Source of the DNA: Acidimicrobiia bacterium
GTDB lineage: Bacteria; Actinomycetota; Acidimicrobiia; Acidimicrobiales; Bin134
Length of the DNA: 33,271 bases
Direction of reading: 5' to 3'
NCBI GenBank assembly: GCA_022821105.1
Contig: JAJEEH010000177.1
Span: 1 to 33,271, forward strand
Each line of letters starts with the position of its first letter. The first letter of the stretch is position 1. Position numbers and translations under genes: made by a program. Below are positions 409 through 19,437 of the stretch, one piece after another. The notes beneath the pieces are model-generated. The model saw only the letters and a list, made by a program, of their open reading frames with translations, was not told where the DNA came from and searched no databases.

Positions 409-1491
409 CTACGGATTGCTGGACGTTGGGCCCGAACCGGCCAAGCGATCCAAGACCTCGGTGGCTTCGGCGACGACGGAGTCGATGATCTCCTGGCAAC
501 TGGGGAGGGCGTCGATGCTGCCCACCACCTGGCCGGTGGGGAGGATGCCGACCTCGGGGTGGCCGTCCACCATGGCGGCCTTGGTCATCATGGGCGCGTT
601 GGCCGCCATGGCCATCTGGGCCCAGGTGAGGCCCAGGCTGCGGCGCATGGCCAACCCCTCCGAAAGGAGCTGGCGGTAGCCCACGCCGGTGAGGGCTCGG
701 AACTTCAGCGCATTGCGGGCGGCCCGGATAAACGAGAGCGGTCCCGACCGCTCCAACCGGGAGATCACGTCGGTGTTGATCACCCGCTGGGGCACGCCGT
801 CCACCGCGGTGGTGACCACCGTGCCGGTGAGCTTTGTGTCGAGATAGAGGGCCTTTACGTGGTCGGGCACATCGCTGTCGGACGACAGCAGGAACCGGGT
901 GCCCATGGCCACGCCGTCGGCCCCGAAGGCCAGGGCCGCGGCCAGCGAGCGGCCGTCCACCATGCCGCCGGCGGCGATGACCGGGATGTCGACGGTGTCG
1001 ATCACTGCGGGCAAAAGCAGCGTGGTGGCGATAGGGCCGGTGTGGCCTCCGCCCTCTGCCCCCTGGGCAATCACCGCGTCGACCCCCCAGGCCGCCACTT
1101 TCTCGGCGTGGCGGGGGGCGCCGATGGTGGGAACCACAGCCACGCCGGCGTCCTTCAGCTTCATGACGATGGCCTCGCCGGGAGCCTGGGCGAAGCTGGC
1201 CACCGGGATCTGCGCCGCGATGATGTGGTCGACCCGGCGGTCGATGTCAGCGGCGTCGGTGCGGAGGTTTACACCGAAAGGCCGGTCGGTGGCACCGGCC
1301 ACGGCATCGATGGTCTCCACCATCTGATCGAACGTCAGTGGGGCCGCGGCGATGATGCCCAGGCCGCCAGCGTTGGAGGTGGCCGCGGTCAGTCGGGCTC
1401 CTGACACCCAGCCCATTCCGGTTTGCACGATGGGGTACTCCACCCCGAACAGCTGGCACACCCGGGTCTGGAGTCGGGGATCTGCAGCCAT
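409..1491 (-). CDS. ipdC: Nitronate monooxygenase/2-nitropropane dioxygenase-family flavoprotein, IpdC-like by context
   Basis: MAADPRLQTRVCQLFGVEYPIVQTGMGWVSGARLTAATSNAGGLGII...GAEGGGHTG... NMO-family fold; lies directly downstream of ipdA-ipdB as in the mycobacterial ipdABC arrangement. ATG at 1491 (ORF track gives TTG at 1494). Confidence 0.8.
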   Translation of the reverse strand: MAADPRLQTRVCQLFGVEYPIVQTGMGWVSGARLTAATSNAGGLGIIAAAPLTFDQMVETIDAVAGATDRPFGVNLRTDAADIDRRVDHIIAAQIPVASFAQAPGEAIVMKLKDAGVAVVPTIGAPRHAEKVAAWGVDAVIAQGAEGGGHTGPIATTLLLPAVIDTVDIPVIAAGGMVDGRSLAAALAFGADGVAMGTRFLLSSDSDVPDHVKALYLDTKLTGTVVTTAVDGVPQRVINTDVISRLERSGPLSFIRAARNALKFRALTGVGYRQLLSEGLAMRRSLGLTWAQMAMAANAPMMTKAAMVDGHPEVGILPTGQVVGSIDALPSCQEIIDSVVAEATEVLDRLAGSGPTSSNP

Positions 1492-1498
1492 CAAGTGC

Positions 1499-2266
1499 TC
1501 AGCGGAACTCGGCTTTGCGAGCGCCGCCGGGATCGAGCACCTCGCGGATCAGGTGAAGTTCCTCGTCGCTGGGCAGCCGAGTCTCGACTACGTCGTCGGT
1601 GCCGGCCAGCTCGAACGCAGTGGCCTCGATCACCTGCTCCACGGTCACGCCGGGGTGGACCGAAGCGATTCTCATGCGGTTGTCGTCGGTCTGGAAGTCG
1701 AATACTCCGAGGTTGGACACCACCCGGCGCACCTCGTGGAAGCGGTTGCTCGGCGAGCCCAGTTCCCGCATCCGGTCGTAGCCCGGCCCCGACACCACAT
1801 CCACCGACGCCACGAATGAGCGGGTGTAGTGGTTAGGCACCCAATAGCTGGTGGTGTGGTTGACCAGGTTGCCCGGGGCGCCCCGCAAGCCGAGGAGCTG
1901 GGCCTTGGGCTGGCGGAAGTCGCCGATGGCGGCGATGTTCTGGTTGCCCCACTGGTCGATCTGGCTGGCCCCCATCAACACATGGCGCTTGCCCGACCAC
2001 ACGATGTCGAACACGGTGCGGTAGGGCACCCAAGACTCCACCACCTTGGGGGCGTCGGGATCTCCCACCGGAAAGTTGTTGGCGGGCAGCACCGCCACGG
2101 TATCGGTGTACACCAAGTCGGGCTCGAAGGTGGCCCGGGCCAGGCGACCGCCCACGATGGGCACAGTTCCGATCGGGTTGCACAGGATCTCGCCGTCACC
2201 CCGGAAGGCCTCGGCGCAGGCCACCACGCAGATCTCGTCGATGGTTGCTTCGGCGATGCTGCTCAT
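1499..2266 (-). CDS. ipdB: CoA-transferase-family beta subunit, IpdB-like (COCHEA-CoA hydrolase subunit)
   Basis: MSSIAEATIDEICVVACAEAFRGDGEILCNPIGTVPIVGGRLARATFEPDL...; ATG overlaps the ipdA stop (ATGA, 2263-2266). Confidence 0.85.
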   Translation of the reverse strand: MSSIAEATIDEICVVACAEAFRGDGEILCNPIGTVPIVGGRLARATFEPDLVYTDTVAVLPANNFPVGDPDAPKVVESWVPYRTVFDIVWSGKRHVLMGASQIDQWGNQNIAAIGDFRQPKAQLLGLRGAPGNLVNHTTSYWVPNHYTRSFVASVDVVSGPGYDRMRELGSPSNRFHEVRRVVSNLGVFDFQTDDNRMRIASVHPGVTVEQVIEATAFELAGTDDVVETRLPSDEELHLIREVLDPGGARKAEFR

Positions 2267-3117
2267 GACCGGGCCTCCAGCGCCTTCAGGTACTCCGCAT
2301 GGGAGGGAGCGTCGAGGTAGGTGGAGCGGAACGCCTCCCAGGCCTCGGGGTCGCGGGCGGTGGCGGCATACTCCCGCTGGAAGGCCTCGTCGCGCCCGTA
2401 GTCGGGCGGGCATTCGGTGAAGTGCGCTCCTCGCGGGGCCTCCACCACGCCGTCGGTGAAGATGCGCTGGATGCGCAGCGTGTGTACCGATCCCTCGTCG
2501 AGAAGGCTCTCGGTGGGCACGATCTTCTCGGTGCTCAGGTATGTCTTGTCGGCGGCCATGGCGAACAGGTCGTCGAAATAGAGATCGGGTCCCAAGAACT
2601 GGCCGTTGCCGCCGGCGTCGGCCCGGTTCATGTGGATCAACGCGGCATCGAGCTTGAAGGCGGGGATGGCCACTAACTCCTCCCCGTCGTCATAGGGCGA
2701 GGTCACCGTGCGCAGATCGGGGTTCATTACCAGCATGTCGGAGCCCAGACCGGCCCGGGTGGGATAGAACGGCACCCGGTGGGAGGCGGCCAGAAGCCCC
2801 AGGTAGAAAGCGCCCTCGTCCAGTTCGGTGAACTCGATGGCCCCACTCTGGCGGGCCTGGCGAAAGTGGGGCTCCAGCGGGATGGAGTCCAGCGACACAA
2901 ACCCGTACACCGCCCGGCGCACCTTGCCGGCCGCGCACAGCAGCCCGATGTCGGGTCCCCCGTAGGCCACCACGGTGAGGTCCTTCAGATCGGAGCGCAA
3001 TATCGCCCGCACCAGCGACATGGGCTTGCGCCGGGATCCCCAGCCGCCGATGCCAATGGTCATGCCGTCTTTCAGCTCGGAGACGACCTCGTCTTCGGTC
3101 ATCCGCTTGTCGACCAT
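2263..3117 (-). CDS. ipdA: CoA-transferase-family alpha subunit, IpdA-like
   Basis: MVDKRMTEDEVVSELKDGMTIGIGGWGSRRKPMSLVRAILRSDLKDLTVVAYGGPDIGLLCAAGKVRRAVYGFVSLDS...PDYGRDEAFQREYA; strongly recalls mycobacterial IpdA (GMTIGIAGWGSRRKPMAFVRAILRSD). Start at 3117 supported by TATCGT 7 nt upstream. Confidence 0.9.
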   Translation of the reverse strand: MVDKRMTEDEVVSELKDGMTIGIGGWGSRRKPMSLVRAILRSDLKDLTVVAYGGPDIGLLCAAGKVRRAVYGFVSLDSIPLEPHFRQARQSGAIEFTELDEGAFYLGLLAASHRVPFYPTRAGLGSDMLVMNPDLRTVTSPYDDGEELVAIPAFKLDAALIHMNRADAGGNGQFLGPDLYFDDLFAMAADKTYLSTEKIVPTESLLDEGSVHTLRIQRIFTDGVVEAPRGAHFTECPPDYGRDEAFQREYAATARDPEAWEAFRSTYLDAPSHAEYLKALEARS

Positions 3118-3221
3118 GGCGGCGACGATAGCCCGCGCCCGTGACCCGGCCCACACTGGCAGAACAGCCTCCTTCGGTGTGGTCATGGTCCCGAAAGCCC
3201 GCATGGGGCACACTGGCAGCA

Positions 3222-4010
3222 ATGAATGACCTCGATTTCACCGGCAAGACCGCCATCGTCACCGGCGGCACCAAGGGGCTGGGCCGGGGGATGGCCACCC
3301 GCTTTTTGGCTGCGGGTGCCGACGTGGTGATCTGCGCCCGCCGCCCGCCGGAGGAGCCGGTGACCGCCGAAGGCCGTGAGGCGCGGTTCGTGGCCGCCGA
3401 CGTGCGGGATCCCGAGCAGATCGCTGGCGTGGTGGAGGCCGCCGTGGAAAACACCGGGCGGGTCGACACCCTCATCAACAACGCCGGCGGCGCCCCCCCG
3501 GCCGAATCGGCCACGGTGTCGCCCCGGTTCAACGAGAAGATCGTGGCCTTAAACCTGATGGCTCCGATGGCGTTCAGCCAGGCGGTGTATCCGGTGATGC
3601 AGGATCAGGACAGCGGCGGGGTAATCCTCAACATCTCGTCGGTGTCGGGCATCCGGCCCAATCCCATGGGGATCGCCTACGGGGCGGCCAAGGCCGGACT
3701 GTTGAACCTGAGCGAGACGCTGGCGGTGGAGTGGGGACCCAAGATCCGGGTTCTGACCGTGACCGTCGGGCTGATTGTGACCGAAGACGCCCACCTCTAC
3801 TACGGCGACGAGGCGGGAATCGCCGCGGTGGGCGAGACCATCGCTTTGGGCCGCATGGGCCAGCCCGACGACGTGGCCGACGTGTGCCTGTTCTTGGCCT
3901 CGCCCATGGCCCGTTGGATGTCGGGGGCCAACATAAAGGTTCACGGCGGGGGCGAGAAGCCGGCTTATCTGGGCGTATCCACCGGCGAGGTGGCCGCCGA
4001 GGACGCCTGA
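3222..4010 (+). CDS. SDR family oxidoreductase
   Basis: MNDLDFTGKTAIVTGGTKGLGRGMATRFL...NNAGG...ISSVSG...YGAAKAG; Rossmann TGxxxGxG, YxxxK. ATG at 3222 rather than the longer ORF start 3141. Confidence 0.9.
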   Translation: MNDLDFTGKTAIVTGGTKGLGRGMATRFLAAGADVVICARRPPEEPVTAEGREARFVAADVRDPEQIAGVVEAAVENTGRVDTLINNAGGAPPAESATVSPRFNEKIVALNLMAPMAFSQAVYPVMQDQDSGGVILNISSVSGIRPNPMGIAYGAAKAGLLNLSETLAVEWGPKIRVLTVTVGLIVTEDAHLYYGDEAGIAAVGETIALGRMGQPDDVADVCLFLASPMARWMSGANIKVHGGGEKPAYLGVSTGEVAAEDA

Positions 4011-6603: not shown

Positions 6604-7743
6604 TCAGGCCACCGCCCCCGAAGACCGGAGCTCTTTCACATTCTCAGCGGAGTACCCCAACTCAGAGAGCACCGCATCGGTGTCAGCCCCTGCTTGCTGT
6701 GACGCCATTGCGGGCTCAGAAGGGGTGCCTTCGAATCGGGGGGCAGGGCGGGGCTGGTTGACGCCGTCGAACTGGAAGAACGAATCGCGGGCCACAGCGT
6801 GGGGGTGGGCCGGGGTCTGGCCCATGGTCAGCACCGGGGTGACGCAGGCGTCAGTGCCGTCGAACACGGCCACCCACTCCTCTTGGCTGCGCTCGGCGAT
6901 AATCTCGCCCACCCGCTGCTTCATCTCGGGCCACCGGTCCCGGTCCATCTGGTCGGGCAGGTCGTCGGCGTTGGCCAGACCAATCCCGGCCATGAACTCG
7001 GCGTGGAACTGGGGCTCGATGGCGCCTACCGCCAGCCATTTGCCGTCGGCAGTGCCGTACACCTCGTAGAAGTAGGCCCCGGAGTCCAAGAAATTGGCCC
7101 CGTATTCGTCGGTCCAGAACCCGCTGGCGTGGGCCGCGTATAGGGGAGACAGCAGATAGGCGGCACCGTCCACCATGGCCGCGTCCACCACTTGGCCGAC
7201 GCCGCCCCGAGCCACTTCCAACAATGCGGCCACCATGCCCAGCACCAGGAACACCGAGCCGCCCCCGAAGTCGCCGATGAGGTTGAGCGGCACCGACGGC
7301 GGCTGTCCTGTCCGCCCGATGTGGGCCAGCGGTCCGGCCAATGAGATGTAGTTGATGTCGTGGCCAGCCCGGTCGGCCAATGGCCCGGATTGGCCCCAAC
7401 CGGTCATGCGCCCGTAGACCAGGTTGGGATTGCGGTCCAGGCACGCATCGGGTCCGACGCCGAGGCGCTCGGCCACCCCGGCCCGAAAACCCTCGAAAAG
7501 CCCGTCGGACGACTCGACCAGACGGAGCACTGCTTCCACTCCCTCGGGTTGCTTCAAGTCGAAAGCCACGGTGCGCTTGCCCCGCTCCATGGGGCCCGAC
7601 TGCGAGGCCACCGGGTTGCCCGGGCCGCCCACCCGGTCGACCCGGATCACCTCGGCGCCCATGTCCGACAGCATCATGCCGGCAAACGGGGTCGGCCCGA
7701 TACCGGCCAGTTCAATGATGCGCATTCCCTTTAGCGGACCCAT
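6604..7743 (-). CDS. Type III CoA-transferase family protein, alpha-methylacyl-CoA racemase (AMACR)-like
   Basis: MGPLKGMRIIELAGIGPTPFAGMMLSDMGAEVIRVDRVGG...GWGQSGPLADRAGHDINYISLAGPLAHIGRTG; retains the GHDINY Asp of racemases. Confidence 0.9.
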   Translation of the reverse strand: MGPLKGMRIIELAGIGPTPFAGMMLSDMGAEVIRVDRVGGPGNPVASQSGPMERGKRTVAFDLKQPEGVEAVLRLVESSDGLFEGFRAGVAERLGVGPDACLDRNPNLVYGRMTGWGQSGPLADRAGHDINYISLAGPLAHIGRTGQPPSVPLNLIGDFGGGSVFLVLGMVAALLEVARGGVGQVVDAAMVDGAAYLLSPLYAAHASGFWTDEYGANFLDSGAYFYEVYGTADGKWLAVGAIEPQFHAEFMAGIGLANADDLPDQMDRDRWPEMKQRVGEIIAERSQEEWVAVFDGTDACVTPVLTMGQTPAHPHAVARDSFFQFDGVNQPRPAPRFEGTPSEPAMASQQAGADTDAVLSELGYSAENVKELRSSGAVA

Positions 7744-10716: not shown

Positions 10717-11294
10717 GCCGAACGCTGGCACTGGTGACCCTGGCCGAAGGGGCTGATCCTTCTCGGGTGGCCGAATTGGAGTCGGCTGCGGTGCTGGGCA
10801 AACACCTGCCGGGAACGGTAGGCGGCGGCCACTTCACCTGGGACGGCATCGACGACCCTATCCCTCCCGGTTTCGAGGATGTGGCCGATGTCGATTTGGT
10901 CGAGCTGGAACTCATCGACGGTTCGCTGGCCGATCCCGATTTCACCGGGGAGATCAAGCGCACCCTCCTGCTTCGGGTTGAGCCCGACGCACCGGCTGAT
11001 TCGGTGGCCGCATTCGAACGGGACCTCATGGCCATGCCCGACCACATCCCGGCCATCGTGAACTGGGCTTTCAGCCGGGTTGTCGGCCCGCCAGGCACCC
11101 GGTGGACCCATAGCTGGGAGCAGGAGTACTACACCCTTGACGGGCTCAAGGTGGACTACATGATGAGCCCCCACCACTGGGGTTTGATCGACGGCTGGTT
11201 CGATCCCGAGATTCCCCGGCAGATCGTGGACCTTGAGCTGGCCCACGTCTATCACGCCACCGCCCGCTCTGTTCTGGCCGCCGCTCTCGGTTAG
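10713..11294 (+). CDS. Dabb-like (stress-responsive alpha-beta barrel) protein, probably two domains
   Basis: GTG overlapping the upstream TGA; LLRVEPDAPADSVAAFERDLMAMPDHIPAIVNWAFSRVVGPPGTRWTHSWEQEYYTLDGLKVDYMMSPHHWGLIDGWFDPE. Confidence 0.65.
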   Translation: MSRTLALVTLAEGADPSRVAELESAAVLGKHLPGTVGGGHFTWDGIDDPIPPGFEDVADVDLVELELIDGSLADPDFTGEIKRTLLLRVEPDAPADSVAAFERDLMAMPDHIPAIVNWAFSRVVGPPGTRWTHSWEQEYYTLDGLKVDYMMSPHHWGLIDGWFDPEIPRQIVDLELAHVYHATARSVLAAALG

Positions 11295-12073
11295 GGGTGC
11301 TGGGAGCTGACCGAGACAATCTCCCCGGTCATATACGTCGAATAGTCACTGGCCAGAAACACCATCACGTTGGCCACTTCCCACGGCTCGGCGGCCCGGT
11401 CGAACGCCTCCAGCGAGATCAAGCTGTCGAGAAATTCCTGGCTGGATGTCTTGGCCAAGAACGGGTGCATGGCCAGACTGGGCGCCACACAGTTGACTCG
11501 GACCCCAGTCTCGGCCGCCTCGATGGCCGCGCAGCGGGTGAGCGCCATCACCCCGGCTTTGGCCGCGGCGTAGTGGCTCTGGCCAGCTTGGGCCCGCCAC
11601 CCCATCACCGAAGCGTTGTTGACGATGACCCCCGAACCCCGAGGCATCATGTGGCGCAGGGCAGCCCGAGTGGTCCGCATGGTGCCGTTGAGGGTGACAT
11701 CGATCACCACCTGCCACTGCTCGTCGGTCATGTCCACCAAGTTGGCGGTGCCCCCCAACCCGGCGTTGTTGATCATCACGTCCACATGGCCCAACTCGGC
11801 CACCGCAGCGTCGATCAGGGCTTGGACCTCCTCCTCAACCGTCACATTGCACAGCTGGGTGGCGGGCCGAACACCAAACTCCTCAGCCAAGCGGTTGGAG
11901 GCCTCGTCCAGGCGCCGCCCATGGATGTCGCTGATGAGCACCTGGGCGCCCTCGGCCAGGCACCGCCGAGCAGCGGCGAAGCCCAAGCCGGTGCCCGCCG
12001 CGGCGGTCACCACCACGGTCTTGCCCTCGAGCAGCCCCCGACCCGGCGGCTCAGCCGGCACTTCCCGGCTCAC
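11291..12073 (-). CDS. SDR family oxidoreductase
   Basis: GTG start at 12073 overlapping the upstream gene stop (GTGA); GLLEGKTVVVTAAAGTGLGFAAARRCL...NNAGLGG...NNASVMGW...HYAAAKAG. Confidence 0.88.
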   Translation of the reverse strand: MSREVPAEPPGRGLLEGKTVVVTAAAGTGLGFAAARRCLAEGAQVLISDIHGRRLDEASNRLAEEFGVRPATQLCNVTVEEEVQALIDAAVAELGHVDVMINNAGLGGTANLVDMTDEQWQVVIDVTLNGTMRTTRAALRHMMPRGSGVIVNNASVMGWRAQAGQSHYAAAKAGVMALTRCAAIEAAETGVRVNCVAPSLAMHPFLAKTSSQEFLDSLISLEAFDRAAEPWEVANVMVFLASDYSTYMTGEIVSVSSQHP

Positions 12074-12963
12074 GGCGATACCGGGACCGGCGGCAGATCC
12101 TTCATGGCCTCGGCCAAATCGGCGATGGTCCAATCCCGCTCTGTATCAAGGAAGTCTTGGCGCAGCCACGGGGTGTACCAACGGACGTCGCCGCCCTTGG
12201 CCATGAACACCCGACCGGTCACACCGCAGTCGGCGGTGGCCAGCCACCCCACTACCGGAGCGGGGTGGAAGGGGTGGTACACGTCGAATCCCTCCGCGGG
12301 CTTGGCCACCATCTCGGCCACTCCCGGCGCCCCCTCAGTCATGCGGGTGCGCCCCGCGGGGGTCACGCAGTTCACCCGCACCCCGTAGCGGCCCAACTCC
12401 TGGGCGATGATCACCGTCATGCCGGCAATGGCGCTCTTGGCTGCGCCGTAGTTCGACTGGCCCACCTGGCCAATCAGCCCCGAAGTAGAGCTGATGTTGA
12501 TCACCGAGGCATTCACCGCCTCCCCGGCCTTGGTCTGGTCGCGCCACCAGCCGGCGCACACCCGGGTCATGCAGAACGTGGACTTGAGGTGGCCGCGGAT
12601 CACCGAGTCCCAGTCGTCCTCGCTCATGCTGGCAAACATCTTGTCCCGCAGGATGCCAGCGTTGTTCACCACCACGTCCACCCCGCCAAAGGCGTCCAGC
12701 GTCTGAGCCAGCACCGATTCGGCCCCAGTCATCTCGGCCACGTCGTCGCAGTTGGCCACTGCTGTGCCTCCGGCAGCAGTGATCTCATCGACCACCGCCT
12801 GGGCTACCTCCGGATCAGCGCCGGTACCGTCGGCGGCACAGCCCAGATCGTTGACCACCACCTTGGCCCCCTCGGCGGCGAACAGCAGGGCGTAGTGGCG
12901 ACCGATGCCCCGCCCGGCGCCGCTGATGACTGCGATCCGCCCCGTGAGCGCGCCGCTGGACAT
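12070..12963 (-). CDS. SDR family oxidoreductase
   Basis: MSSGALTGRIAVISGAGRGIGRHYALLFAAEGAKVVVNDLG...NNAGILRDKMFASM...ISSTSG...NYGAAKSA. Confidence 0.88.
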   Translation of the reverse strand: MSSGALTGRIAVISGAGRGIGRHYALLFAAEGAKVVVNDLGCAADGTGADPEVAQAVVDEITAAGGTAVANCDDVAEMTGAESVLAQTLDAFGGVDVVVNNAGILRDKMFASMSEDDWDSVIRGHLKSTFCMTRVCAGWWRDQTKAGEAVNASVINISSTSGLIGQVGQSNYGAAKSAIAGMTVIIAQELGRYGVRVNCVTPAGRTRMTEGAPGVAEMVAKPAEGFDVYHPFHPAPVVGWLATADCGVTGRVFMAKGGDVRWYTPWLRQDFLDTERDWTIADLAEAMKDLPPVPVSP

Positions 12964-13865
12964 CAGCTGCCCTGAGCTGCCTGGCGCTGGGCGGCCTGCG
13001 CCTCCAATAGCGCCATGGTGGGGTGCTCTTCGAAGCCGATGGTGCGGGGCAGCGACTCCTCGATCCCTTCGGGGGTCCAACTGCTCTCGGGGGCGTACAT
13101 GGAGCGAACCTCACCGAACTGGGCCCACACCGATATGCGGGGACCGACCACGGTGTATACCTGAGCGGTGAGATCCCGAGCAGCATCGCTGAGCAGGTAC
13201 ACAGCCAACGGCGCCACGTCTTCGGGCTCGCCAGCCTCGATCTCGAACGGCACGTTCTCCGACATCCGGGTCTTGGCGCTGGGGGCGATGCAATTGGCGT
13301 TGATGCCGTAGCGCTTCAGAGCCAGCGCCGCGCTCTTGGTGAGCGAGATGATGCCGCCCTTGGCCGACGCGTAGTTGCACTGGGAGGTCGATCCGGTGAA
13401 CGCCCCGGAGGTGATCCCCACCAGCGACCCGCCGGTCTCCTGCTTGCGCATAATGGCCGAGGCGTGCTTGTACACCGTGAAGTGGCCCTTGAGGTGTACC
13501 CGGATCACATCGTCGAACTCTTCTTCGGTCATGTTGAAGATCATCCGCTCCCGCAGGATGCCGGCCACGCACACCGCACCGTCGATGGACCCCCAAGTGT
13601 CCACCGCAGCCTGGACCGCGGCCGCGCCGCCCTCCATGGTGCTGATGTCAGAGGCCAGAGCCAGAGCGGTTCCTCCGGCCGCCTCGATCTCGGCCACCAC
13701 CGCGTCGGCTACCTCCGACGAGGGATCGGAGCCGTCTAGCGACACGCCATAGTCGGCCACCACCACATTGGCCCCGGCGGCGGCGCAGCCCATAGCGATG
13801 GCTCGGCCGATGCCGTTGCCCGCACCGGTGACGACGATGTTCTTGCCTTCTAGATATCCAGTCAC
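12963..13865 (-). CDS. SDR family oxidoreductase with C-terminal extension
   Basis: GTG start; MTGYLEGKNIVVTGAGNGIGRAIAMGC...VAGILRERMIFNMTEEEF...NYASAKGG; stop overlaps next ATG (ATGA at 12963). Confidence 0.88.
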   Translation of the reverse strand: MTGYLEGKNIVVTGAGNGIGRAIAMGCAAAGANVVVADYGVSLDGSDPSSEVADAVVAEIEAAGGTALALASDISTMEGGAAAVQAAVDTWGSIDGAVCVAGILRERMIFNMTEEEFDDVIRVHLKGHFTVYKHASAIMRKQETGGSLVGITSGAFTGSTSQCNYASAKGGIISLTKSAALALKRYGINANCIAPSAKTRMSENVPFEIEAGEPEDVAPLAVYLLSDAARDLTAQVYTVVGPRISVWAQFGEVRSMYAPESSWTPEGIEESLPRTIGFEEHPTMALLEAQAAQRQAAQGS

Positions 13866-14520: not shown

Positions 14521-15321
14521 TTACAGCGGCATCACCACGCCGCCGTTGGGGCGCATGGTTTGGCCGGTCACGAATCTCCCGGCCTCGGAGCACAGATACA
14601 GAATGGCGTAGGCGATGTCGTTGGGGTTGCCCACATAGCCAAGGGGGTTCATTTGGGCGATGGTGTCGAAGTGGTTCCTCTGGCGCTCGGGGTCCACCTT
14701 GCCGTCGTCGTCAAGGAAATGGCGGTCGTAGATGGGGGTTTCGATGGAACCGGGGGCCACCGCGTTCACTCGGATGGGGGCCATCTCCACCGCCGCAGTG
14801 CGGGTGATCATCTTCACCGCCGCCTTGGTGAGGGCGTACACCGAGATCATCGGCGCGGGCATGTCGGCCCCGGCCGACGACAGGTTCACGATCGACCCCG
14901 ACTTCTGATCGGCCATGGCCCGACCCGCAGCTGCGGTTCCCCAGTAGACGCCCTTGATGTTCACGTTCATCACCCGGTCGAGCTGCTCAGGGGTAGTGTC
15001 CACGATCAGGCTGTCGGTGATGATTCCGGCGTTGTTCACCATGATGTCCAGCCGCCCATGGCGGTTCACCGCATCGGCCACCAGAGCCTCCACCGCGGAT
15101 TTGTCACTCACATCGGTGGGCACCGCCGACCAACTGGCTCCCAACTCGTCCAGCACCCCGCCGGTCTCGCCCATTCCGTCGGCGTCGACATCGCCCAGCA
15201 CCACCGAGGCTCCGGCCTTGGCCAGCGTCACCGCCGTCCCCCGGCCGATGCCGGAAGCTGCCCCAGTGACCACCGCCACCTGGTCGGAAATATCAAACGC
15301 AGCAATGATGTCGTCGTGCAT
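14521..15321 (-). CDS. SDR family oxidoreductase
   Basis: MHDDIIAAFDISDQVAVVTGAASGIGRGTAVTLAKAGASVVLGDVD...NNAGIITD...YALTKAAV. Confidence 0.9.
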   Translation of the reverse strand: MHDDIIAAFDISDQVAVVTGAASGIGRGTAVTLAKAGASVVLGDVDADGMGETGGVLDELGASWSAVPTDVSDKSAVEALVADAVNRHGRLDIMVNNAGIITDSLIVDTTPEQLDRVMNVNIKGVYWGTAAAGRAMADQKSGSIVNLSSAGADMPAPMISVYALTKAAVKMITRTAAVEMAPIRVNAVAPGSIETPIYDRHFLDDDGKVDPERQRNHFDTIAQMNPLGYVGNPNDIAYAILYLCSEAGRFVTGQTMRPNGGVVMPL

Positions 15322-15374: not shown

Positions 15375-15791
15375 TTAGCTCGGTTCCCAGAAGACCATGG
15401 CGTGGGTGTCGTCGTAGGTGCGGGCGTAGGCCGCCACGGGCATGCCGATCTCTACGACTTCGGGGTCGATGCCGGTGAGGCCGCCGAACATTCTCACTCC
15501 CTCGGGAAGATCGATCATGGCAAGGACATAGGGCAGCTCGGCAAAGGAGGGAACTCCGTACTGGCGCACCACGGTGTAGGTGTAGACGGTGCCGGTGCCG
15601 GCGGCCTCCATCCACTCGGGCTCTGCGCCGCAGGCGGTGCATATTGATCGGGGATAGTGCTGGCGATGGCCGCACTCCGGGCACTGCTGGATGAGCAATC
15701 GGCCCTCAGCCGCGGCAGCGAAGAACTCTCCGTACTCGCCCTCGCCAGCGGGGACCGGTCCCTGCCATTCAAGATCGCGCACAACCCTCAT
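15375..15791 (-). CDS. DUF35 OB-fold Zn-ribbon protein (ChsH2/thiolase-partner type)
   Basis: LLIQQCPECGHRQHYPRSICTACGAEPEWMEAAGTGTVYTYTVVRQ; CxxC...CxxC ribbon; ATG overlaps the thiolase stop. Confidence 0.88.
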   Translation of the reverse strand: MRVVRDLEWQGPVPAGEGEYGEFFAAAAEGRLLIQQCPECGHRQHYPRSICTACGAEPEWMEAAGTGTVYTYTVVRQYGVPSFAELPYVLAMIDLPEGVRMFGGLTGIDPEVVEIGMPVAAYARTYDDTHAMVFWEPS

Positions 15792-16966
15792 GACGGCCGG
15801 TCCTTGCCCAAGATCACGGTGGCGATGGCCGACAGCCAGCCGCCCGAGCCGCAGGCCAGGGCCAACTCCGCGTCGGGCACCTGGGCCTCGCCGGCGTCGC
15901 CCCGGAGCTGGCGAACCGCTTCGATCAGCAAGAAGATGCCCCGCATCCCGGGATGGTTGGACGACAGGCCCCCGCCGTCGGTGTTGGTGGGCATAGACCC
16001 GCCCCGGCGCAGGTGGCCCTCCTCCACATAGGCACCGCCCTCTCCCTTGCCGCAGAAGCCCAAGCCCTCCAGCATCAGCATCACGGTGATGGTGAAGCTG
16101 TCGTAGAGCTGGGCAGTGTCGATATCAGCCGGTGTCACCCCCGCTTGGGCAAACGCCGCCGGTCCGCACACCGCGGCGCCCATCTCGGTGAAGTCGGGCA
16201 TCTGGTGGATGTTCCAGTGGGTCTGGGTACCTGCCGCCCCCAGCACGTAGATCGGGGGCTGGCGCAGGTCGCGGGCGATCTCCTCAGTGGTCATCACCAG
16301 GGCACCACCCCCATCGGTGATCACGCAGCAATCAAGCTTGTGCAGCGGATCGGCGATCATGCGGCTGTTCAACACGTCGTCCACGGTGATGGGGTCGCGG
16401 TAGCGGGCATCAGGGTTGAGGCCGGCGAACTCCCGAACCCCCACCGCGATCTCGGCCAATTGCTCCGAGGTGGTGCCGAACTCGTGCATGTGGCGGCGGG
16501 CCGCCAGGGCATAGGCCCCCACCAAGGGCAGGCCGTAGGGGGTGGCCATTTGCATGGCCCCGGTCACGGGCTGGGCGTCGCGCTGAAACCCGCCGGTTCC
16601 CAGCACCCTTCCCATTCGGGTGAGCTGATCAGAGCCGTAGGTGATCAGCACGGTGTCGCACAGCCCCTCCCGGATAGCGGCTGCGGCGTGCTGCACGTGG
16701 AACTCGAATGACGAGCCCCCCACCATGGTCCCGTCTATGTAGCGGTGGTTCACCCCCAGGTACTCGGCCATGGACACGGCGTCGTCGCCCGCTGCCGGCC
16801 CGCCGCCGCTGGTGCTCACATATCCGTCGATGGCCGACTTGGCGATGCCGCAGTCGGCAATGGCACGGCGGGCGGCCAGGGCATGGTGCTGCACCGAGTT
16901 CAGGTGCGGCACCACCGGATAGTCGCTAAGGCCAATGCCGCAGATGACGGGGTGTCGGGAGGGCAC
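15788..16966 (-). CDS. Thiolase-like protein (SCP-x/Ltp-type lipid-transfer thiolase or aldolase)
   Basis: MPSRHPVICGIGLSDYPVVPHLNSVQHHALAARRAIADCGI...GTMVGGSSFEFHVQHAAAAI...GGGLSSNHPGMRG...ACGSGGW. GTG start 6 nt after TAGGCT. Confidence 0.85.
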   Translation of the reverse strand: MPSRHPVICGIGLSDYPVVPHLNSVQHHALAARRAIADCGIAKSAIDGYVSTSGGGPAAGDDAVSMAEYLGVNHRYIDGTMVGGSSFEFHVQHAAAAIREGLCDTVLITYGSDQLTRMGRVLGTGGFQRDAQPVTGAMQMATPYGLPLVGAYALAARRHMHEFGTTSEQLAEIAVGVREFAGLNPDARYRDPITVDDVLNSRMIADPLHKLDCCVITDGGGALVMTTEEIARDLRQPPIYVLGAAGTQTHWNIHQMPDFTEMGAAVCGPAAFAQAGVTPADIDTAQLYDSFTITVMLMLEGLGFCGKGEGGAYVEEGHLRRGGSMPTNTDGGGLSSNHPGMRGIFLLIEAVRQLRGDAGEAQVPDAELALACGSGGWLSAIATVILGKDRPS

Positions 16967-16975
16967 TGGGGCAGC

Positions 16976-18208
16976 CTAGGCGAGCAGGTGGTTGTGCTCG
17001 CCTATGTGGGGGGCGCGGTGGCGGATGCGGTAGGGGGATTTGGGGGCAAGGTACGGCGCTCCCAGATAGGTGAAGCTCCGGCCCAGGTCCTCGTGCTCCA
17101 CTTCGACGGGGAAGCCTCGCTCTTGGAAGTGGGGGTCGGCCAGCACTTCTTCGGGCGAGTAGATGATGCCCACCGCCAAGCCCCGCTCTTGGGCGCCGAT
17201 GAAGAACTCGTAGGCGGTGATGTTCTCGGAGATGAACCGGACTGCCTCTCGGGCGGCACCAAACATGGCGGTCACCTCGGGATCCTGGCCTACCTGCGAA
17301 AGATGCAGATCTTCTTCGAGTTGGGCGCCCATCTCCAAGAAGAAGAACTCTTCAAAGTCGTTCTTCAAACCCAGGCTCTCCATCCACTCCACCACCACGG
17401 CAAAGTCCCGGGCCGAGCGAGGCGGAAAACCGGTGTTCACGTCGATGCCGTCCGCCGACAGTGCCCGGGTGAACGTGGTGGGCTCGATGGCCGCGTGCCG
17501 CCCGGTCTGGCGCTGCACCTCGTCGCCGGCCACCAACCACTGCACCGAGCCGAACTCGGTAGTCACGTTGGCGGCTGCGTGCATGTTGACGTCCACGAAC
17601 TGTCCTTGGCCGGTGTTGTCTCGGGCCAACAGCGCGGTCTGGGCGGAGAGCACCGCGAACACCGAACCGGTCTGGTACCCCTGATTTCCGCCGCCTCGCT
17701 GGGGCGGAATGGCGTGGTCGTCGTAACCGCAGCTCCACACCGGCCCGCCCGCGGCCAGCACGGTCAGGTCGATGCTCTCCTCTTGTGACCGCGGTCCGCT
17801 GCGGCCAAACGGGGTGAGCGATACCCAAATCAACTCCGGATGGTCGGCCCGCAAGGTGTCGTGGTCGATGCCCAGATCGGCCAGTCGACCAGGAGGCTCC
17901 GACTCCAGCACCACGTCGGCGGTGGCAACCAGCGATCGGAACCGGTCTCGAGCATCTTCATCTGCAAGATCCAGGGTCACGCCCAGCTTGGAGGCGTTGT
18001 AGTGCCACCACCACAGGCTGCGCTCGGGATCGGGCTCGTCGTTTAGAAACGGCTCAAATCCCCGGGTGTGGTGCCCATCGGGAGGCTCAACCACTATCAC
18101 CTCGGCCCCCATACCGGCCAGCATCAGGCCGGCATACGCCGACGCTTCACCGGCCATCTCCACCACTCGGATTCCAGCCAGAGCGCCGGGCAGATCGTTC
18201 CCCGTCAT
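16976..18208 (-). CDS. Type III CoA-transferase (CaiB/BaiF family), subunit retaining the expected Asp
   Basis: MTGNDLPGALAGIRVVEMAGEASAYAGLMLAGMGAEVIVVEPPDG...FGRSGPRSQEESIDLTVLAAGGPV...GQGQFVDVNM; ATG overlaps upstream TGA (ATGA, 18206-18210). Confidence 0.88.
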   Translation of the reverse strand: MTGNDLPGALAGIRVVEMAGEASAYAGLMLAGMGAEVIVVEPPDGHHTRGFEPFLNDEPDPERSLWWWHYNASKLGVTLDLADEDARDRFRSLVATADVVLESEPPGRLADLGIDHDTLRADHPELIWVSLTPFGRSGPRSQEESIDLTVLAAGGPVWSCGYDDHAIPPQRGGGNQGYQTGSVFAVLSAQTALLARDNTGQGQFVDVNMHAAANVTTEFGSVQWLVAGDEVQRQTGRHAAIEPTTFTRALSADGIDVNTGFPPRSARDFAVVVEWMESLGLKNDFEEFFFLEMGAQLEEDLHLSQVGQDPEVTAMFGAAREAVRFISENITAYEFFIGAQERGLAVGIIYSPEEVLADPHFQERGFPVEVEHEDLGRSFTYLGAPYLAPKSPYRIRHRAPHIGEHNHLLA

Positions 18209-19437
18209 CAGATCACCCCCTCCGCGGCCAGGTCGGCTAACTCGGCGTCCGAATGACCGAGCAGGCCCCCGAGAATCTGGCGGTTGTGCTGCCCCAATAG
18301 GGGACCTCCTCGCTCCAGCACCCAGTCGGTCTCGGAGAAGTGGGCAGGAATGCCGTCGACCCGGACCCGGCCCATCTCGCCGTGGGTGACGATGGGCCAC
18401 AAGCCCCAGGCCTCGGTGTTGGGGTCGTTGTCGATTCGGTCCTCCGGCTTGGCTACTCCGGCAGCGGGCACGCCGACGGCTTGCAGTTCGGAGGCGGCCT
18501 TGAACCGATCCCGACCCGAACTCCAGGCCCGCACGGCATCGTCCAACTCGTCCTCGTAGGCCAGGCGCCCGGCCAGGTCGTCGAACCGCTGGTCGTTGAT
18601 GCCCATAAGCCGGGCGATGGCCTGCCAATCGCGGTCGTCCCGGGCGGCCAGGGCCAGCCAGGCGTCGTGCCCGTCGGCCTCATAGATGCCGTGGGGGGCC
18701 ATGGCCGGGAACTGGCTGCGGTTGGAGTAGGGCATGCCGTCGCGCCGCAACGGCCGTTCGTTCACGGTGTAGTCCAATGCCACCGGGCCGAGCATGGTGG
18801 CCCCGGCATCGGTACACGACATGTCGATCCACTGGCCCTCGCCGGTGCGGCTGCGGTGGATGAGCCCGGCCATGATGGCCATGGCCATGAAGTTCCCCCC
18901 GTGGTGGTCCATGTAGGAATACCCCCACCCGGCCGAGGGCATGTCGGGGAGCCCGGAGGTGAACGTGAGCCCACAGCAGGCCTGCACGATCGGGCCCCAC
19001 GTCTTGTACTTGCGATAGGGACCGATGTGGCCGAACCCGCAGTTGGACACGTACAAGATGTCGGGCTTGATCTCTTTCAATCGGTCGTATCCGAAACCCA
19101 GGCGCTCCAACACCCCGGCGGCGAAGTTCTCGGTGACGGCGTCGCTCACCGAGATGATCTCGGCCAGCAGCTCTTTGCCCCGCTCGGTGCGGAGGTTGAG
19201 CGTGACTCCCAGTTTCTCCACGTTGTGGTTGTTGAAGCAGCCGCCGAACTCATGGCCTCGGCGGTCGTCCACGAACGGGGACGTTCCCCGGAGCACATCC
19301 CATTTGCCCAGGCGCACTGGATCTTCGATGCGGATGATCTCGGCCCCGAAGGCGGCCATCCACCGGGTGGCCCCTGCTCCGGCCAGCTGTCCGGTGAAGT
19401 CGCAGATGCGAATGTGGGACAAAGCCTCAGATTTCAC
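18208..19437 (-). CDS. Type III CoA-transferase (CaiB/BaiF family), Asp position appears substituted
   Basis: GTG start; SHIRICDFTGQLAGAGATRWMAAFGAEIIRIEDP...GFGHIGPYRKYKTWGPIVQACCGLTFTSGLPD...GEGQWIDMSCTDAG. Confidence 0.9.
   Translation of the reverse strand: MKSEALSHIRICDFTGQLAGAGATRWMAAFGAEIIRIEDPVRLGKWDVLRGTSPFVDDRRGHEFGGCFNNHNVEKLGVTLNLRTERGKELLAEIISVSDAVTENFAAGVLERLGFGYDRLKEIKPDILYVSNCGFGHIGPYRKYKTWGPIVQACCGLTFTSGLPDMPSAGWGYSYMDHHGGNFMAMAIMAGLIHRSRTGEGQWIDMSCTDAGATMLGPVALDYTVNERPLRRDGMPYSNRSQFPAMAPHGIYEADGHDAWLALAARDDRDWQAIARLMGINDQRFDDLAGRLAYEDELDDAVRAWSSGRDRFKAASELQAVGVPAAGVAKPEDRIDNDPNTEAWGLWPIVTHGEMGRVRVDGIPAHFSETDWVLERGGPLLGQHNRQILGGLLGHSDAELADLAAEGVI

Follow-up and report, generated by a model that had tools for sequence, protein, structure and literature searches.

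Most solved family III CoA-transferases are homodimers, and among these formyl-CoA transferase (YfdW) and human SUGCT carry a nucleophilic Asp in each chain. Heteromeric members of the family are also described, one of them being the succinyl-CoA:L-malate CoA-transferase SmtAB. In BbsEF, from toluene degradation, there are two related subunits of which just one possesses the catalytic Asp (D178). The family III nucleophile corresponds to Asp169 in CaiB and Asp165 in Mct (PMC9196870), a further heteromeric enzyme, the succinyl-CoA:phthalate CoA-transferase SptAB, is cited as such in PMC11659651, and DddD, a two-domain DMSP CoA-transferase/lyase, contains two CaiB domains (PMC7174347). Here we compare these systems with a tandem gene pair from a marine Acidimicrobiia lineage, located within a stretch of 33,271 nucleotides that was analysed as a whole and is referred to as the window. 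The pair, and a third member of the family from the same window, are as follows.

18208..19437, minus strand: upstream gene, GTG start, 409 aa, family III CoA-transferase, predicted Asp-bearing catalytic subunit; PF02515 E 5.4e-83
16976..18208, minus strand: downstream gene, ATG start, 410 aa, family III CoA-transferase, predicted non-catalytic subunit; PF02515 E 1.8e-63
18210-18206, minus strand: TGATG sequence, in which the stop of the upstream gene overlaps the ATG of the downstream gene
6604-7743, minus strand: third CaiB/BaiF member, alpha-methylacyl-CoA racemase type, with the motif GHDINY; 1x74 E 1.9e-115

Both tandem genes are full-length and overlapping, as the original prediction had stated, with CoA_transf_3 (PF02515; family III, CaiB/BaiF) covering its whole profile in each chain, and the predicted third member is likewise present. 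The last base of the upstream TGA is also the first base of the downstream ATG, and this overlap at 18206..18210 makes translational coupling likely. The two chains share 26% identity and are encoded as two overlapping frames rather than as one fused polypeptide. No NCBIfam equivalog model reached its cut-off for either tandem chain, or for the fused CoA-transferases of the same genome.

To locate the nucleophile, the window proteins were aligned with YfdW, the racemase MCR and the two BbsEF chains, the latter as aligned in the PDB search. A single column holds the Asp of the YfdW 'GDSNTG' motif, MCR D156 and the Asp of BbsEF chain B, which is residue 178 by counting along that chain and corresponds to the 'D178-CoA adduct' named in the title of PDB entry 9fol. 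In this column the upstream chain has D177 (YMDH; GAC, 18907-18909), whereas the downstream chain has Tyr178 (NQGY; TAC, 17675-17677). Scored at the Frc/CaiB Asp169 position, the nucleophilic Asp is thus found in the upstream chain and in the pair as a unit, and is lacking from the downstream chain. The expectation that just one tandem chain bears the catalytic Asp, and that alignment to formyl-CoA transferase and racemase structures would not place it in both, is borne out, and the upstream chain resembles YfdW and SUGCT in fold and nucleophile, although those enzymes are homodimers with an Asp in every chain. However, the roles had been assigned the wrong way round, with 16976-18208 taken as active and 18208-19437 as inactive.

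That assignment relied on the Asp of 'EESIDLTV' in the downstream chain, which is D147 (codon 17768-17770) and lies ~30 residues ahead of the nucleophile column, beside the column of the racemase His126. In the same column as D147, MCR has D127, E. coli YfdW a Glu, and chain A of BbsEF, which lacks the nucleophile, an Asp. Conservation of this residue could be taken to favour catalysis by 16976-18208 through the SIDLTV Asp, with 18208-19437 inactive, as it is Asp in 80/80 downstream orthologues and Gly in 75/75 upstream ones. We regard this reading as extremely improbable, given that YfdW, an established transferase, has Glu at that position, and that the column shared by YfdW GDSNTG, MCR D156 and BbsEF D178 holds D177 of the other chain. 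The D147-column Asp is instead, on the basis of these same counts, a conserved mark of the putative non-catalytic subunit, and the two BbsEF chains have Asp and Gly there in the respective subunits. The nucleophile column itself contains Asp in 75/75 upstream chains and in 0/80 downstream chains, where it is occupied by Y (64), F (11), A (2), M (1), T (1) and L (1), and because Asp is constant upstream and never found downstream, the one-Asp asymmetry is not a product of chance.

We also considered alpha-methylacyl-CoA racemase identity for the tandem chains, as MCR belongs to the same superfamily. The His126/D127 columns read ID and WG in the two chains, a His126 equivalent is absent from both, and the His126/Asp156 racemase pair is not found in either, so that this identity was rejected; only 6604-7743 has the equivalents of both residues in place.

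Each chain was found to be closest to its own BbsEF counterpart by sequence, fold and tree. For the upstream chain the best solved match is 9fn0_B, the D178-bearing BbsEF chain (2.2e-57; next match 4.7e-41; other BbsEF chain 8.4e-26), while for the downstream chain it is 9fn0_A, the Asp-less chain (8.4e-50; next match 8.4e-33; other BbsEF chain 2e-17), with identity to the BbsEF chains being only ~31%. Single-chain models were predicted with moderate mean pLDDT values of 84.7 and 77.7. A fold search with the upstream model ranked 9fn0_B/D first (TM 0.82-0.84), and the downstream model gave 9fol_A/9fn0_A first, although here the TM of 0.66 was similar for several homodimeric enzymes and the order is decided by E-value. 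Model quality was low at residues 134-176 of the upstream chain and 158-172 of the downstream chain, which are active-site and interlocking segments, and this may be what is expected of interlocked chains folded singly. As in BbsEF, the pair consists of co-encoded paralogous subunits, one with and one without the Asp. The likeness to SmtAB and SptAB, which have different substrates, lies in their description as heteromeric family III enzymes and not in sequence comparison.

A scan of GTDB genomes recovered 80 loci with the downstream chain (53-97% identity), which fall in Acidimicrobiia (Actinomycetota), Chloroflexota, Myxococcota and other former Deltaproteobacteria, Pseudomonadota and Binatota. 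The upstream chain adjoins it on the same strand, and in the same upstream-downstream order, in 75/75 scorable loci, with the unscorable remainder of the 80 being mostly contig ends or broken upstream frames. Among 60 related genomes, the upstream chain is present wherever a full downstream chain was found. In one of them (G045) the subunit genes are separated by ~5 kb on contig C13, where several further CoA-transferase matches also lie, and another (G039) has two adjacent pairs. Pairwise distances of the two chains correlate in a mirror-tree comparison (r 0.85, 64 pairs), a value obtained without a species-background control and weak evidence alone. The spread of the pair is patchy, since the gene was found in only 2/297 genomes of a wider phylum sample.

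The genome containing the window (G000, 3.28 Mb) yielded 42 CoA_transf_3 matches. Family III CoA-transferases are hugely expanded in it, with similar candidate numbers in several relatives of the same genus and few or none in others. Nine of these matches are double-domain open reading frames of ~770-880 aa. The Asp is present in every C-half, and the N-half residue at this position is S, E, Y or H, and D in a single protein. A maximum-likelihood tree places the downstream chains in one clade (99/98) together with six fused N-halves and the BbsEF chain that lacks the Asp, and the upstream chains in another (100/98) together with the C-halves of those six fusions and the D178 chain of BbsEF; the other three fusions make up a second set of their own. 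These unnamed ~800-aa fusions and DddD resemble the window pair in having two CaiB domains per functional unit, although the window has two genes in the opposite order, with the Asp-bearing chain first. Loss of the Asp in the non-catalytic clade is not universal, as one fused N-half has Asp (L014, 990-3491) and two have Glu in the catalytic column (L011, 851-3304; L017, 832-3330), and these three proteins may possess two acidic sites. Fused and split forms also occur on plasmids. That of Mycolicibacterium madagascariense encodes an 863-aa fusion of a downstream-type half, with Phe in the column, and an upstream-type half, with Asp, followed by thiolase and OB-fold genes, and that of Rhodococcus sp. 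DMU1 encodes upstream-type, downstream-type, lipid-transfer/thiolase and OB-fold genes, unfused and in the order of the window.

That the two chains function together is well, if indirectly, supported by the natural fusions, which also bear on whether the genes could instead encode two homodimers, the upstream one an ordinary CoA-transferase and the downstream one having an Asp-independent activity, such as that of an isomerase, racemase or thioester hydrolase. Homodimers are the rule among solved enzymes of the family, many residues of the downstream chain (D147, WSCGYDDH and NQxY among them) are invariant and perhaps serve a function particular to it, and the same genome encodes a lone Asp-less member, L029 (913-2157), a CaiB-family protein with Ile at the catalytic Asp position and no obvious pair. 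However, obligate pairing across phyla with matched phyletic presence, two clades mirrored with the two BbsEF chains and the existence of a fused version all speak against separate homodimers, which we judge improbable. The heteromeric arrangement put forward by the original prediction is well supported by the subunit-specific BbsEF matches, the 75/75 adjacent pairs, the mirrored clades and the natural fusion. We consider it highly likely that the pair encodes a BbsEF-type heteromer, a family III CoA-transferase with a catalytic upstream subunit, a non-catalytic downstream subunit and one Asp per pair, and the natural fusion lends indirect support to a physical assembly of the two chains.

The genes that follow the pair, and a group from the far end of the window, are listed below.

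15788..16966, minus strand: thiolase-fold protein resembling the Ltp2/Sal aldolases, with Gly replacing the nucleophilic Cys and YDSF at the HDxF site
15375..15791, minus strand: DUF35/OB-fold partner, best solved match the ChsH2 DUF35 (6ok1_B, 3.6e-22), BbsA weaker (6.2e-6)
14521..15321, minus strand: SDR dehydrogenase belonging to this run of genes, kept in the genus
12963..13865, minus strand: SDR dehydrogenase, PRK07791-like, (3R)-hydroxyacyl-CoA dehydrogenase type, kept in the genus
12070..13080, minus strand: SDR dehydrogenase, PRK07791 above cut-off, true start probably within the open reading frame, kept in the genus
11291..12133, minus strand: SDR dehydrogenase, PRK07831 above cut-off, kept in the genus
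409-3222, minus strand: IpdC/FabK-like flavoprotein, then close homologues of IpdB (6co6, E 2.2e-84) and IpdA (6co6, E 2.1e-97)

A thiolase-fold/OB-fold pair and SDR genes accompany both BbsEF and the window pair. The thiolase/DUF35 neighbours that had been predicted are indeed there, although the label 'thiolase' is doubtful. A catalytic Cys of the BbsAB type was not found in 15788..16966, the HDxF site reads YDHF in Ltp2 and YDCY in Sal (PMC12329534), and the NCBIfam BbsA model scored far under its cut-off against the DUF35 protein at 15375..15791. As the Cys is replaced by Gly, the motif is YDSF and the DUF35 partner is nearest ChsH2, an aldolase-like lyase is a more probable assignment for 15788..16966 than a thiolase. 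The essential Cys304 of Sal corresponds to a Ser in this protein. Unlike the Bbs lyase, this neighbour is nearer to Ltp2/ChsH2 than to BbsAB, and on the aldolase-like reading the parallel with the Bbs operon is one of layout, not identity. The run of thiolase-fold, DUF35/OB-fold and four SDR genes is kept in the genus and not in other phyla, with the thiolase/OB-fold link on actinobacterial plasmids as the exception outside the genus. Three of the SDR genes overlap, at 12070-13865 and 11291-12133 on the minus strand (two of PRK07791 and one of PRK07831 type). A BbsCD-like asymmetry among the neighbouring SDRs was considered and rejected, as all keep the YxxxK motif (by eye).

The substrate is very probably different from that of BbsEF. 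A search of the window's own genome (~90% complete) gave no match to Gly_radical, the glycyl-radical enzyme family of benzylsuccinate synthase, and since such an enzyme was not found there, this synthase appears to be missing and benzylsuccinate was ruled out as the substrate. IpdA, IpdB and IpdC are genes of steroid C/D-ring degradation (PMC5380842), and their counterparts in this marine Acidimicrobiia lineage lie at 409-3222. Because the IpdA/IpdB homologues and the IpdC-like flavoprotein share the window with the pair, the acceptor could plausibly be an acid of steroid or terpenoid origin, although this is a guess from the gene neighbourhood; the same substrate had been guessed in the original prediction and is made somewhat likelier by the IpdAB homologue.

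By analogy with family III dimers, the two subunits would interlock as alpha-beta rings, and each heterodimer would thereby have a single working active site. D177 would attack the acyl-CoA donor to form an aspartyl anhydride and then aspartyl-CoA, from which CoA would be handed to the acceptor acid, with the Asp-less subunit completing and shaping the pocket. The acyl-CoA product would probably be oxidised by the SDRs of the operon and then cleaved by the aldolase-like thiolase-fold/DUF35 pair.

An assembly of the same kind could also serve another chemistry, either intramolecular CoA transfer or a lyase- or hydrolase-like reaction, as in mesaconyl-CoA transferase and DddD. Intramolecular family III transferases are known (PMC9196870), DddD combines transferase and lyase functions in two domains (PMC7174347), IpdAB, which has homologues in the window, is related to type I CoA-transferases and is a known hydrolase (PMC5380842), and acyl-CoA ligases that are also encoded in the window offer a possible alternative means of acid activation. 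Such a chemistry seems rather unlikely, however, given that the intermolecular BbsEF chains are nearest by both sequence and fold, and that the match to Mct is far weaker.

The arrangement proposed for this pair is known already from BbsEF, and what is new here is a widespread further member. Annotation pipelines label both chains 'CoA transferase', which masks their probable obligate pairing and the presence of one chain that is predicted to be non-catalytic, and the Asp test together with the two clades gives a simple rule for spotting such pairs and their fused forms. The conserved operon of transferase pair, aldolase-like lyase/DUF35 and SDRs in marine Acidimicrobiia, the core of which is also carried on Rhodococcus and Mycolicibacterium plasmids, points to an undescribed route of acid degradation. 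We tentatively suggest, as a possibility and not as the expected outcome, that family III CoA-transferases split long ago into catalytic and demoted subunits, and that a large class of heteromeric and fused enzymes, most of them unnamed, may derive from this split. On this reading one marine Acidimicrobiia genome would contain at least ten such pairs (nine fused, one or more split), and the present conserved subfamily would couple the transfer of CoA to a thiolase-fold/DUF35 lyase of the aldolase type, as an aerobic analogue of benzylsuccinate beta-oxidation for steroid- or terpenoid-like acids.
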